A stretch of 64,000 nucleotides of DNA from NCBI RefSeq assembly GCF_016735595.1, contig NZ_JAERRB010000012.1, positions 1 through 64,000 of the forward strand. The letters are read 5' to 3'. Position 1 is the stretch's first letter. Each line of letters starts with the position of its first letter. The position numbers and the translations under genes are program-made. Shown here piece after piece: positions 39,278-44,156 of the stretch. Under the pieces are notes generated by a model. It made no database searches, was not told the DNA's origin, and was given only the letters and a program-made list of their open reading frames with translations. The DNA comes from Chryseolinea lacunae. GTDB lineage: Bacteria > Bacteroidota > Bacteroidia > Cytophagales > Cyclobacteriaceae.

Positions 39278-39293
39278 ATCGTAATTTTACGAT
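39278..39293 (+). promoter_or_regulatory. ArsR operator 1
   Basis: ATCGTAATTTTACGAT is a perfect 16-bp palindrome ending 9 bases before the arsR start, followed by an extra half-site ATTACGAT. A near-identical site occurs before the next gene at 39652-39667, which makes an ArsR operator the likely reading. Confidence 0.75.
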
Positions 39294-39302
39294 CATTACG
39301 AT

Positions 39303-39629
39303 ATGGGACTTACAAAAACAGAAGAATTCACCAAAACGCAGAATGAATTGGCGCTTCTGGCCAAGGCGCTTGGTCATCCTGCGCGGATTGCCATTCTTCA
39401 ATTTCTGATCAAGACCAAATCTTGCGTTTGTGGGGATATCGTGGACGAACTTCCGCTTTCACAATCAACGGTTTCCCAGCATCTGAAGGAGTTAAAAAAT
39501 GCGGGCCTCATCAAGGGTGACATTGATGGTCCAAGCGTTTGCTATTGTATAGACGAGAAAGCCTGGAACAAAGCGAAGAAGGCCATTGGCGACCTGTTCG
39601 AAACCTACAAAGGAGGCGACTGCTGCTAG
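39303..39629 (+). CDS. arsR: ArsR-family arsenic-responsive repressor
   Basis: 108 residues. Winged helix with LGHPARIAILQFL, the recognition helix LPLSQSTVSQHLKELKNAG, and a wing GPSVCYCID. Cysteines at 41 and 43 in KSCVCGDI are at the classic metalloid-sensing place (ELCVCDL in plasmid ArsR), and another pair ends the protein (GGDCC). Binding of As(III) or Sb(III) releases DNA. It heads the cluster arsR, arsenate reductase, acr3, monooxygenase, sigZ. Confidence 0.92.
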   Translation: MGLTKTEEFTKTQNELALLAKALGHPARIAILQFLIKTKSCVCGDIVDELPLSQSTVSQHLKELKNAGLIKGDIDGPSVCYCIDEKAWNKAKKAIGDLFETYKGGDCC

Positions 39630-39651: not shown

Positions 39652-39667
39652 ATCGCAATATTACGAT
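39652..39667 (+). promoter_or_regulatory. ArsR operator 2
   Basis: ATCGCAATATTACGAT repeats the operator found before arsR with only two changes. It lies in the 59-base gap ahead of the arsenate reductase and suggests that the structural genes have their own ArsR-controlled promoter. Confidence 0.7.
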
Positions 39668-39688: not shown

Positions 39689-40336
39689 ATGTCTACTACT
39701 ACAGAATCACGCGTGGCGTTTTATCAACCGCTTCGGGAAACCATCGAAGCGCTTGTAAAAAATTTCAACACAATTCCCGATAGCCGAAAAGCAATACTCA
39801 AACAGTTAACCGACTTCGTTGGGGATAAATTGAAAAAAAACGAGCCCATAGCGCTAATCTTCATTTGCACGCACAACTCGCGCAGAAGTCACATCTCACA
39901 GATCTGGGCACAAACTGCGGCGGCCTACTATGGCATTGGGAATGTTGTTAGTTATTCGGGGGGCACAGAAGCAACGGCATTCAACCCTCGCGCCGTGAAG
40001 GCCATGAAGGACACGGGCTTCAAGATCATTGCCACGTCGGAAGGAACGAATCCAGTATACGAAGTTTCGTTCTCGGACGAAGCAACTAAAATTGTCGCGT
40101 TCTCAAAGAAATATGATTCAAAAACAAATCCTCAGAAAGGATTTGCAGCCGTCATGACCTGTTCACATGCAGATGAAAATTGTCCGGTTGTCTTTGGGAT
40201 GGAAAAAAGGATCTCCCTCCCCTACAACGATCCAAAAGACTTTGATGACACACCTCAGGAGGCAGCGAAATATGCAGAAAGAGTGAGGGAAATCGGGACC
40301 GAGATGTTGTATGCGTTTTCACAAGTAAAACCTTAA
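39689..40336 (+). CDS. Arsenate reductase, low-molecular-weight phosphatase type
   Basis: 215 residues. The P-loop CTHNSRRSH (Cys about residue 60) has the CxxxxxR/S pattern of LMW protein-tyrosine phosphatases and thioredoxin-linked ArsC. Further cysteines in VMTCSHADENCP could be the resolving pair. An N-terminal extension of about 50 residues precedes the core and is common in the Bacteroidota form. It reduces As(V) to As(III) for export by the next gene, four bases downstream. Confidence 0.88.
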   Translation: MSTTTESRVAFYQPLRETIEALVKNFNTIPDSRKAILKQLTDFVGDKLKKNEPIALIFICTHNSRRSHISQIWAQTAAAYYGIGNVVSYSGGTEATAFNPRAVKAMKDTGFKIIATSEGTNPVYEVSFSDEATKIVAFSKKYDSKTNPQKGFAAVMTCSHADENCPVVFGMEKRISLPYNDPKDFDDTPQEAAKYAERVREIGTEMLYAFSQVKP

Positions 40337-40339
40337 CCG

Positions 40340-41392
40340 ATGTCTCCAGAAAAGAAATTGAGCTTCCTCGACCGCTATCTCACGCTTTGGATATTCATGG
40401 CCATGATCGTTGGTGTGGGACTGGGAAGGTTGGTTCCCGGTGTTGAAGGCTTTTTAGACAACTTCAGCGCAGGCACAACGAATGTCCCCATAGCAGTAGG
40501 CCTTATCGTGATGATGTTTCCACCGCTTGCAAAAGTACGGTATGAACATCTGGGAAAGGTCTTCAAAAATGTTAAAGTCATTTCATTGTCGCTTCTTCTC
40601 AATTGGATTGTTGGGCCCATTCTCATGTTTGCGCTTGCGTTGGTGTTCCTGCACGACAAGCCCGAATATATGATTGGATTGATCCTGATCGGCATTGCGC
40701 GGTGCATTGCTATGGTGTTGGTTTGGAACGACCTTGCTAAGGGCGACAAAGAATATGCTGCTGGTCTTGTGGCTTTAAACAGCATCTTCCAGGTAGTATT
40801 CTATAGCCTGTTTGCCTGGCTGTTCATAACCGTGCTTCCTCCATACTTCGGAATCGAAGGGTCCGTAGTGAACATCCGTATGAGCGATGTTGCTAAAAGT
40901 GTGTTCCTATACTTAGGCGTACCCTTCATGGCGGGCTTCCTAACACGATACTTTTTCAAAAAGGCAAAAGGCGAAGATTGGTATGTGCAACAAGTGATAC
41001 CGAAAATTAGCCCGCTCACGTTGATTGCCCTCCTGTTCACCATTGTGGTAATGTTCAGTTTGAAAGGGAAAATGATTCTGGATATCCCCCTGGATGTTAT
41101 CCGGATTGCCATTCCGCTGGTGATTTATTTTCTGGTCATCTTTACACTCAGCTTTCTCCTTTCAAAAAAGCTTGGGGCAAATTACGAAGAGAATACTTCG
41201 GTATCTTTCACCGCCACGGGCAATAACTTTGAACTCGCGATTGCCGTTGCAGTGGGTGTGTATGGGATCAACTCCGGGCAGGCATTTGCAGGCGTCGTTG
41301 GGCCGCTGATCGAAGTTCCCGCCCTGATTCTGTTGGTCAACTTAGCGTTCTGGTTTAAGAACAAACTATATCCTTCAACAGCAAAACCGTAG
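40340..41392 (+). CDS. acr3: ACR3-family arsenite efflux permease
   Basis: 350 residues with ten hydrophobic helices. Family marks include [16 protein letters not shown], the Cys in [20 protein letters not shown], which is the essential residue for As(III) transport, and [15 protein letters not shown]. It pumps arsenite out of the cytoplasm using the proton gradient. The start lies 3 bases after the reductase stop, so the genes form one unit. Confidence 0.96.
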
Positions 41393-41397
41393 AGCCT

Positions 41398-42465
41398 TTG
41401 GAAAAATATGATGTCATAGTGATTGGTGGCGGACAAAGTGGTTTAGCGATGGGATATTATCTCAGGCGATCTGCGCTGTCCTATGTCATCCTCGACAATC
41501 AAACGGAAGCCGGGGGTGCGTGGCTTCATGCCTGGAAGTCGTTGCGTCTCTTCTCTCCTGCCCAATGGAGTTCATTGCCCGGCATGATCATGACCGGCGG
41601 CAGCGACTACTATCCCACCCGAGACGTTGCCATTGAATATCTTAAATCCTATGAAACCAAATACAATCTCCCGGTTAAGAGGCAAGTCGAGGTGTTTAAT
41701 GTGCTTAAGGTCGATGATGAATTCCACCTTCAAACTTCCCAAGGATTGTTTATTTCAAAGGTGGTGGTCAGTGCGACTGGCTCTTTCAACAATCCATTTG
41801 TTCCTGATTTTAAAGGCATAGAAATTTTTAAGGGTCAAATTCTCCATTCAAGTCAATACGACTCCGATGGACAATTCGAAAACAAAAGAGTTGCCATTGT
41901 TGGTGAAGGAAACTCTGGTGCGCAGATTCTTGCCGAGGTGTCGAAGGTGACAGGCACGCTCTGGGTAACCCAAAAAGAACCACGGTTCCTACCCGATCAT
42001 ATCGACGGACGTTTTCTGTTTGATGCGGCCTCACAACTATATGCAGCACAAAAGGAAGGTAAACCATTCAAGCCGCCATCGTTGGGTGACATTGTTATGG
42101 TGGATTCGGTGAAAGATGCCCGTGCACGAAAAGTTTTCAAAAGCATCAGGCCGTTTGACCACTTTACAGAAGATTCCATAGTGTGGGCCGATGGTCATGA
42201 GGAAAAGATCGACATCGTTATCTTCTGCACCGGGTTCAAGCCCGGACTATCACATCTAAAGTCCCTCAACATGGTTAACGAAGATGGGAAAGCCGACACA
42301 AGCGGAACAAAATCGACGAAGGTGGAAGGGCTTTGGCTTGTTGGGTATGGCAACTGGACCGGCTTTGCTTCGGCTACGCTTATTGGTGTGGGCCGGAGTG
42401 CAAAGAAAACCGTTGAAGAGATTGTGGACTACTTGGCCATAAAAACAAAATCAGTCAACGCATAA
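41398..42465 (+). CDS. ArsO-like NAD(P)/FAD-dependent monooxygenase
   Basis: 355 residues. N-terminal FAD site VIVIGGGQSGLAMGYYLR; second nucleotide site VAIVGEGNSGAQILAEV; flavin-monooxygenase marks FSPAQWSSLPG and VIFCTGFKPGL near the end. Flavin monooxygenases in this position of arsenic operons are called ArsO, and some oxidise As(III) or organoarsenicals; the substrate here is not shown. The start is TTG at 41398, five bases after acr3, with no usable ATG before the FAD motif. Confidence 0.85.
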   Translation: MEKYDVIVIGGGQSGLAMGYYLRRSALSYVILDNQTEAGGAWLHAWKSLRLFSPAQWSSLPGMIMTGGSDYYPTRDVAIEYLKSYETKYNLPVKRQVEVFNVLKVDDEFHLQTSQGLFISKVVVSATGSFNNPFVPDFKGIEIFKGQILHSSQYDSDGQFENKRVAIVGEGNSGAQILAEVSKVTGTLWVTQKEPRFLPDHIDGRFLFDAASQLYAAQKEGKPFKPPSLGDIVMVDSVKDARARKVFKSIRPFDHFTEDSIVWADGHEEKIDIVIFCTGFKPGLSHLKSLNMVNEDGKADTSGTKSTKVEGLWLVGYGNWTGFASATLIGVGRSAKKTVEEIVDYLAIKTKSVNA

Positions 42466-42485: not shown

Positions 42486-43025
42486 ATGAACTCTATCGCT
42501 ATTTCTGACTGGCTAAAAACTCAAAACGAACTACGGGCTTTCGTTTACAAAAAAGTGCGAGACAAAGCCCTTGCCGAAGACATTGTTCAAGACGTTTATC
42601 TAAAGGTGTATACGCACATTTCGTCCCTGAAAGAATCGGATAGCATAACCGCCTGGATCTATCGGATCACCCGCAATGTGATTTCAGATCATTTCCGGAA
42701 GCAATCAAAAACGCTTCATAGTTTTGAGTTGGATTGGGAGAACCAAGACGTCAACTATAACGAATGTGTTTCGTCCTGCTTAAAAGACATGCTCCACCAA
42801 TTGCCTTCAAAATATCGCGAGGCCATTGAACTTACCGAGTTTCATAATTTATCACAACTACAGCTGGCCGAACGACTTCAAATCTCATATTCCGGTGCAA
42901 AGTCAAGGGTGCAACGCGCCCGGCAAATACTGCGCGAAAAAATGGACATCGCCTACCACATTCAACATGATGCCTACGGCAATGCCATTGCTTGTCAGAG
43001 CAGGCTCGCATGCGGTTGTGAGTAA
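42486..43025 (+). CDS. sigZ: SigZ-family ECF sigma factor with Cys-rich C-terminus
   Basis: 179 residues. Region 2 has DKALAEDIVQDVYLKVYTHI and WIYRITRNVISDHFR; region 4 has LPSKYREAIELTEF and LQLAERLQISYSGAKSRVQRAR. After region 4 a tail of about 30 residues carries three cysteines (CQSRLACGC), typical of SigZ and able to bind a thiophilic metal. No anti-sigma gene is adjacent, so the tail may be the sensor (inference). It lies 20 bases after the monooxygenase and so belongs to the arsenic cluster. Confidence 0.88.
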   Translation: MNSIAISDWLKTQNELRAFVYKKVRDKALAEDIVQDVYLKVYTHISSLKESDSITAWIYRITRNVISDHFRKQSKTLHSFELDWENQDVNYNECVSSCLKDMLHQLPSKYREAIELTEFHNLSQLQLAERLQISYSGAKSRVQRARQILREKMDIAYHIQHDAYGNAIACQSRLACGCE

Positions 43026-43027
43026 AA

Positions 43028-43060
43028 AAAGGAAGGCAGAGACCAGCTCCGCCTTCAATT
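43028..43060. terminator. Terminator between sigZ and the Cys-rich peptide gene
   Basis: AAGGCAGAG and CTCCGCCTT pair across a short loop with one mismatch; A7 before and a T-rich end after allow action on both strands. It separates convergent genes whose stops are only 37 bases apart. Confidence 0.65.
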
Positions 43061-43062
43061 TG

Positions 43063-43134
43063 CTAGCAGCATCCGGTTGTGATGCCACCGCAGCAGTCGT
43101 CGCCACAACAACTGCCTGGATCTTCGTTCTTCAT
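43063..43134 (-). CDS. 23-residue Cys-rich peptide beside the arsenic operon
   Basis: An ATG at 43134 opens a 23-codon frame ending at TAG 43063. Six of the 23 residues are cysteine, placed as three CC pairs at 9-10, 14-15 and 22-23, with Gly and Asp between (SCCGDDCCGG, GCC end). It is too regular to be a chance frame and resembles a minimal metal-thiolate ligand. The frame is open further upstream to 43266, but the extra 44 residues lack cysteine and look non-coding. It faces sigZ across a shared terminator. A metalloid-binding or storage role is inference. Confidence 0.55.
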   Translation of the reverse strand: MKNEDPGSCCGDDCCGGITTGCC

Positions 43135-43268
43135 AGTCGTAAATTTTAGTTTGAACTGACCTGGCCGCTTTGGCCATTCAGTTTCTATGACGCACAGGCT
43201 TGAGGAAAGACTCAAACTATTTTCTTGCGTCTTTTTTGCAGATACTTCGTCTTTAGATAAAAGCATTT

Positions 43269-44156
43269 ATGAAAAACACTTTCTCCGTTTCACTTATTGC
43301 GAGTTTGATAGCCTTTTCGGCTTTTGGGCAAAAGAATTCCACGAAGCCATTAACCCCTGCACGAGGCCACTACAGGCAACTTCAAACGTATAGCACAAAG
43401 TCTCAAGATGCTGAGCTTGACAAACAAAAGTTTGAAACTGACGCAGCAACAATAGAAAGACGGATGAGTCTCAAACCTCAGTACTTAACCGGCGTTACGT
43501 TGAAGGATTTTCAAATTCCGGAAGTTCCGGCCAACAGTTCAGAGCTAACCCGGGCTGAGATTAACTATCTTCTCGAACTTCAAAAACAACGAACTCCCGA
43601 AGACATCAGATCAAGTCTGTACATGGCCAACATTTGGTATAGCTTACGCGTGACACCCGCAGACTCCACGTATAGAGGGTTTCGAAAAAACTTGTTTCAC
43701 ATTGGTCGTTCAATAGGAACATGGTTCAATCCAGATGATTTACCGCTCACCGCCGATCTGATGGCGAAGGTATGGCGTGACGCAAGTTTTTTTATTTGGT
43801 CGTTGAAATTCAAATATGCCCGCATTCGCCCTTATGTTATTGACAAGAACGTAAAGAACCTGGAGGACACCGACTGGGCTGCCTATCCAAGCGGCCATGC
43901 CGCAAACTCTTACATTAATGCTTACCTCTACCAGGAGCTGGCACCCGAATTTACCGACATCTTTATCAAGGACGCATACGATATGGCGCACTCGCGCGAG
44001 ATCATCGGTGTCCACTACCCTTCCGATTCTGAAGCATCCAGAATTTTCGCGAGGCAGTTTGTCAACAAGCTTTTTGAGAATGAGCAATTCAAGAAAGACT
44101 TCCTGAAAGTGAAAGAAGAATGGGCGTTGAAAGCAAAAGAGAAATTCCAGCGATAA
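43269..44156 (+). CDS. PAP2-family acid phosphatase (class A type), secreted
   Basis: 295 residues, signal peptide ending SAFGQ. The three PAP2 motifs are present: KYARIRP (about 179), YPSGHAANSY (about 206) and SREIIGVHYPSDSEAS (about 240), with catalytic His in PSGH and GVHYPSD. Such enzymes hydrolyse phosphomonoesters in the periplasm. It is monocistronic and ends at a strong terminator. Confidence 0.92.
   Translation: MKNTFSVSLIASLIAFSAFGQKNSTKPLTPARGHYRQLQTYSTKSQDAELDKQKFETDAATIERRMSLKPQYLTGVTLKDFQIPEVPANSSELTRAEINYLLELQKQRTPEDIRSSLYMANIWYSLRVTPADSTYRGFRKNLFHIGRSIGTWFNPDDLPLTADLMAKVWRDASFFIWSLKFKYARIRPYVIDKNVKNLEDTDWAAYPSGHAANSYINAYLYQELAPEFTDIFIKDAYDMAHSREIIGVHYPSDSEASRIFARQFVNKLFENEQFKKDFLKVKEEWALKAKEKFQR

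Follow-up and report, generated by a model that had tools for sequence, protein, structure and literature searches.

A conserved cysteine-pair peptide gene with a SigZ-type promoter beside an arsenic cluster of Chryseolinea lacunae

Small cysteine-rich ligands and cysteine-tailed regulators have been described in several settings. Metallothioneins carry their cysteines mainly as CxC rather than as vicinal CC pairs. Vicinal CC pairs bind As(III) in ArsD, a metallochaperone of about 120 residues that serves ArsA. At the C terminus of AfArsR, a short disordered stretch with adjacent cysteines and another cysteine (NCCHGTRDC) suffices for As(III); a ten-residue CC-x5-C peptide from this protein binds As(III) with a log K of 6.35 and holds Hg(II) far more tightly (PMC11212059). 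The FlAsH tag CCPGCC was engineered for biarsenical dyes (PMC3665623). Among ECF sigma factors, the activity of CorE depends on a Cys-rich C terminus (PMC3107203; PMC8999054). SigZ of Bacillus subtilis is entered without a function in the sigma factor table of a 2023 review (PMC10141391), and a review of arsenic in this species from 2025 is silent on it (PMC12607644). We found neither a SigZ–arsenic link nor the peptide described below in the open-licence PubMed Central literature, although a report in a subscription journal is possible. Here we analyse a 64,000-nucleotide stretch of the C. lacunae genome (the window) and propose that it probably holds a minigene of the SigZ regulon, which would encode a metallothionein-like thiol peptide for arsenite and presumably antimonite.

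The window carries the cluster arsR–arsC-like–ACR3–arsO–sigZ, and a short frame lies beyond it on the opposite strand (Table 1). A preliminary description of this DNA had drawn attention to a tiny frame facing sigZ, with 26% cysteine spaced CC-x3-CC-x6-CC, and to Cys-rich tails on ArsR (GGDCC) and SigZ (CQSRLACGC); all of these were confirmed, the full SigZ terminus being CQSRLACGCE. The peptide, MKNEDPGSCCGDDCCGGITTGCC, has six cysteines in 23 residues and neither aromatic residues nor histidine, its core consists of little besides Gly, Asp and the CC pairs, and no signal sequence is apparent by eye. The longest in-frame ORF (43063–43266, 67 aa) spans the promoter motif, and the 23-residue start is therefore the relevant one. 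No family in Pfam or NCBIfam covers the window peptide, and neither it nor its relatives match any Pfam profile, including those of described metallothioneins, in searches whose power is limited by the short length.

Table 1 Features of the peptide locus and the adjoining arsenic cluster
Feature	Position	Strand	Remarks
ArsR-box-like palindrome ahead of arsR	39278..39293	+	
ArsR	39303..39629	+	ends GGDCC
Second ArsR-box-like palindrome	39652..39667	+	ahead of arsC-like gene
ArsC-like protein	39689..40336	+	low-molecular-weight phosphatase fold
ACR3 arsenite efflux transporter	40340..41392	+	
ArsO flavin monooxygenase	41398..42465	+	
SigZ-family ECF sigma factor	42486..43025	+	last gene of ars operon; linker Cys94 and Cys tail
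Intrinsic terminator, peptide gene	43032..43056	-	between two convergent stop codons
23-aa CC peptide gene	43063..43134	-	MKNEDPGSCCGDDCCGGITTGCC, ATG to TAG; basis: homologues and synonymous excess
Leader with hairpin	43135..43188	-	54 nt; outer AACTGA/TCAGTT, inner TGGCC/GGCCA, about 43154–43183
SigZ-type promoter motif, peptide gene	43189..43215	-	TTGAGTCTTT-N13-CGTC, one mismatch
Divergent SigZ-type motif, PAP2 gene	43225..43251	+	exact
PAP2/class A acid-phosphatase-like protein	43269..44156	+	secreted; presumed SigZ target

The frame is a genuine bacterial gene and is conserved. Counterparts in related genomes had been set beforehand as a test, and they are present: in 16 Bacteroidota genomes, a Cys peptide of 17–24 residues occupies the same slot near sigZ, in all of them convergent with sigZ, and its gene usually stands back to back with one for a PAP2 phosphatase. 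Across 80 SigZ loci (1.02 Mb), we counted 22 Cys ORFs of the peptide type (15–26 aa, at least four cysteines, Cys-rich C terminus), compared with one in the same DNA reversed. The peptide pattern is kept while codons change, and coding constraint in the frame, the other point raised at the outset, is supported: of 19 changes in pooled close pairs, 11 are synonymous, where about 22% would be expected (p = 7e-4), a significance that resides in the pooled value only, as the tests are weak pair by pair.

Searching 196 genomes of the family with the peptide found it in two congeners, each time between sigZ and the PAP2 gene (MENQLDPGACCGDDCCGGLNSGCC in Chryseolinea serpens, genome G163, locus L100; MVNQHDPGDCCGDDCCGGLIGGCC in genome G136). 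Further relatives were found by tracking sigZ rather than the peptide; these are MECKTDPGCCDGGCCGEIIIGCC, MKNKKDPGCCTGNCCGSGCDSGCC, MENNKNSGCNCGGTCTCTCGSSCC, MKNVIIQKDGGCCGGLCDC and two near relatives, together with MEDLTISIEGGGCCGSGCC, MEDLIISIEGGGCCGGSGCC, MKNLSLTPGDGGCCGGSCC, MKNLTNDGGCCGGGGCC and MKTHSIDGDGCGGGGCC. There are two sub-types, DPG-xCCxxxCC...GCC and DGG-CCGGxxCC, and one member (L118) has just three cysteines and a motif spacer one base shorter. The neighbours that recur in 13 peptide loci are SigZ (13/13), PAP2 (11/13) and ars genes. The peptide is confined to a minority of SigZ-bearing genomes, and many SigZ loci have larger CC proteins or none in its stead. Weak tblastn matches in genomes G103, G131, G009 and others were rejected, because none of them, when read in frame, was a Cys peptide with the motif; a plasmid collection gave no match to the peptide. 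Short CC peptides also occur near sigZ outside the main family, at L161:7612-7692 (+), L120:5099-5164 (+) and L193 after 1617 (+) (MKNQESCCTTNTGCCNGCCGGGTACC, MNEKSGSQSCCGNANTGNCCG and MLNIFLGPLEVESCCNSGCCGDGGGCCGGGGGCC..., respectively).

The preliminary description had missed that the peptide gene stands outside the ArsR-box operon, with a SigZ-type promoter, a 5′ hairpin and a terminator of its own. In 15 relatives, the same motif lies at the same position ahead of the peptide gene, and the 14 peptide genes that we laid out share a constant order: the motif (TTGCGTCTTT-N13-CGTC, with no more than one mismatch), a leader of 44–62 nt (58 nt in L115, counted from an inner ATG), the peptide and a strong intrinsic terminator at most about 15 nt from the stop codon. 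The leaders open with a hairpin whose stem sequence varies by genus, and they fold much more strongly (mean z -2.10) than other leaders behind the same motif (0.22; p = 8e-8). The unit is closed, with no gene after the peptide, and is therefore not an attenuator leader. A scan for housekeeping-type promoters returned nothing for the peptide gene, and Rfam has no match for its transcript. ArsR-box-like palindromes are found only ahead of arsR and of the arsC-like gene, which means that ArsR does not target the peptide gene directly. No SigZ-type motif precedes the window sigZ, which begins 20 nt after arsO and is therefore probably transcribed from the ArsR-controlled promoter.

The promoter-like motif, TTGCGTC(T/C)TTT-N12-CGTC, is rare in genomes. 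It was first read off the window locus, and its association with SigZ was then tested genome-wide with a control pattern. Among the 196 family genomes, an exact site is present in 14 of the 35 that bear SigZ and in 7 of the 161 others (Fisher p = 1.4e-7), whereas the control, the pattern reversed, is not associated with SigZ (p = 0.7). Twenty of the 29 exact sites in these genomes are at most 1.1 kb from sigZ, and columns outside the site selection are also biased, with a T directly after CGTC in 83%. In many genomes, among them those of Bacteroidota and Paenibacillus, sigZ itself has the motif ahead of it. Given this genome-wide association, we infer that SigZ reads the motif. In the two congeners, the sole exact sites in the genome are the divergent pair of peptide and PAP2 genes; in the window, the PAP2 site is exact and the peptide site, at the fixed upstream spacing that marks the regulon, has a single mismatch. 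The remaining one-mismatch sites in the genome of the window offered no convincing target. Zero-mismatch searches of 395 phylum and 390 order genomes returned few sites, some of which adjoin unrelated genes and are probably background.

The window SigZ matches the families TIGR02959 (162 bits, cut-off 168.65) and PRK09637 (162.4 bits, cut-off 212) better than all other models, in both cases under the cut-off. These are the families of B. subtilis SigZ, for which the link to arsenic is new here, and the Bacillus members examined have a CC pair after region 4. At least two cysteines follow sigma region 4 in 81 of 82 SigZ copies; in the commonest tail, a CC pair lies a little ahead of a YGN-like motif, with further Cys at the end, and the clade of the window has YGN-x3-C-x5/6-C(x)C and an invariant linker Cys94. 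In its Cys-rich C-terminal extension and linker cysteine, SigZ resembles CorE-type ECF sigma factors (formerly ECF44), but its linker (NxCV..CL) lacks the CxC motif of that group, and its context is arsenic rather than copper or cadmium. From these cysteines, direct sensing of the metalloid by SigZ may be surmised.

The genes behind the motif, in other phyla too, point to arsenic. In 40 other ORFs so placed (omitting SigZ, PAP2 and short ORFs), hmmscan identified DUF2703 in 10, the arsenite methyltransferase ArsM in 9 and the permease ArsP in 7; DUF2703 is a thioredoxin-fold family that is present in a Rhodococcus arsenic cluster (PMC6514093). Further motif-bearing genes encode proteins that resemble ArsI lyases and metallothioneins, the latter of 46–51 aa (for example, MQNSETLQNCTCTNCNCPNCDCKDCKTENCTCEK...); both kinds were named by eye, not by profile. 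SigZ-type promoters together with ArsM, ArsP and DUF2703 were seen in Bacteroidota, Firmicutes, Chloroflexi and others (L092–L098, L099–L178), which suggests a general role for SigZ as a sigma factor of the arsenic response. It is the neighbouring genes that make arsenite the candidate signal and ligand. CxCxxC-rich metallothionein-like proteins of 46–65 aa are found beside sigZ, behind the motif or both (L094:6472-6669 (+); L197, L210 and L213 near 1550), and PhzF-like proteins follow a SigZ-type motif in two family genomes (L093:5214-6104 (-) and L095:4879-5772 (-)). PAP2 is the most constant SigZ companion in Cytophagales; if arsenic stress induces it, phosphate supply against arsenate might be the reason.

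Five family genomes have a CC-rich protein of 63–77 residues near sigZ, and all five lack the tiny peptide there. The larger protein is in turn missing, anywhere in the genome, from all ten peptide genomes. The two are thus mutually exclusive across 15 genomes, which suggests that they are interchangeable in role. The larger protein has four CC pairs (..SCCTPK..ACCEPS..GACCAQP.DG..CCDK; L105:8506-8703 (-)). It and a companion, MATGYEQVRSIAAAIDGD...CC, recur in SigZ loci without the tiny peptide (also in L082, L083, L085, L087, L090, L099, L109, L110 and L112), and neither has a Pfam match.

Like the metallothioneins (SmtA/BmtA, MymT and the fungal 25-residue copper type), the peptide is small, rich in cysteine (above a threshold of 15%) and free of aromatics, with presumed thiolate binding and metal-linked regulation; unlike them, it has 17–24 residues, vicinal CC pairs, no profile match and an arsenic context. 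Such pairs are shared with ArsD, a family (PF06953) that is absent from all 15 genomes in a search whose positive control matched in Lactococcus lactis. The As(III) site of AfArsR sits within a repressor, whereas the window peptide is free. A CC-x(2-4)-CC core is common to the peptides and the engineered FlAsH tag, which the natural peptides of the CCGGSCC type closely resemble.

On this sequence evidence, the peptide is most simply read as a free, arsenic-induced thiol buffer that takes up arsenite. Arsenite would free ArsR from the boxes before arsR and arsC and so switch on the ars operon, of which sigZ is the last gene. SigZ, with its conserved linker and tail cysteines, would bring RNA polymerase to its motif, and the divergent pair of peptide and PAP2 phosphatase genes would be transcribed. 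A stable, self-terminated transcript would yield much free peptide in the cytosol, where As(III) could be held by two or three thiols of adjacent Cys pairs and thereby buffered pending its export, methylation or oxidation. We lean, by a modest margin, towards a wider proposal: that in several phyla a metalloid-sensing SigZ heads a regulon for arsenic defence, and that in Bacteroidota it drives natural tetracysteine arsenite-buffer peptides of 17–24 residues, perhaps the smallest metallothionein-like proteins of bacteria.

Several other explanations have to be weighed against such a buffer. An improbable one makes the peptide a feedback regulator that strips the metalloid from SigZ, or binds its Cys region through shared metalloid, in place of an anti-sigma factor. 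The gene is convergent with sigZ in 16 of 16 loci and tracks it more strictly than any efflux gene, Cys motifs are common to both products, and the listed recurrent neighbours include no anti-sigma family; yet many SigZ loci manage without the peptide, and plain buffering would also yield feedback, so that the two are hard to tell apart. We also think it unlikely that what the peptide really binds is a different soft metal (Cu, Cd, Hg or Zn), or that the trigger is general thiol stress, with the arsenic genes mere neighbours. The promiscuity of CC motifs, illustrated by the Hg(II) preference of the AfArsR peptide (PMC11212059), speaks for this. Cys pairs bind many thiophilic ions (Hg, Cd, Cu and Zn), which counts against the arsenite buffer, and it is the neighbouring genes that suggest a specificity for arsenite. 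Across phyla, however, the motif leads to arsenic genes (ArsM, ArsP, ArsI-like and DUF2703), and the recurrent families listed include none for copper, mercury or cadmium.

Less credible still is a small regulatory RNA whose peptide would be incidental or a further function. The compact transcript of about 160 nt is sRNA-like, and its leader hairpin, which other SigZ leaders lack, is kept as structure although the sequences differ; against this, it is the peptide pattern that is held as codons vary, and Rfam recognises nothing. A precursor of a modified natural product is highly improbable: although a short Cys/Gly-rich peptide with its own promoter has the size of some precursors, the neighbours are only SigZ, PAP2 and ars genes, with no maturation enzyme among the 25 most frequent neighbour families listed for 13 loci. 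We give equally little credence to a metallochaperone for ACR3. The transporter gene shares the cluster in the window and some relatives, but G160, G122, G084 and G184, four of the ten genomes with the peptide, lack it, and in others it is unlinked; moreover, the peptide keeps company with sigZ and not with acr3, and its genes have no ArsR box ahead of them but a SigZ-type motif. With ArsD missing as well, from 15 of 15 genomes, serving ACR3 or ArsA is therefore not the general function. The preliminary proposal of a metalloid-binding peptide or ACR3 chaperone thus survives in its first half, a conserved, arsenic-tied peptide that is very likely a thiol ligand for metalloid, and is not supported in its second.

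In bacteria, few gene-encoded metal-binding peptides may be smaller than this one. If the proposal is right, SigZ would gain a promoter and a candidate signal, and a peptide under the usual annotation size would be a working arm of arsenic resistance. It would also be a natural counterpart to the arsenical-binding CCxxCC tags of chemists, and the SigZ promoter would be ready-made for arsenic biosensors.
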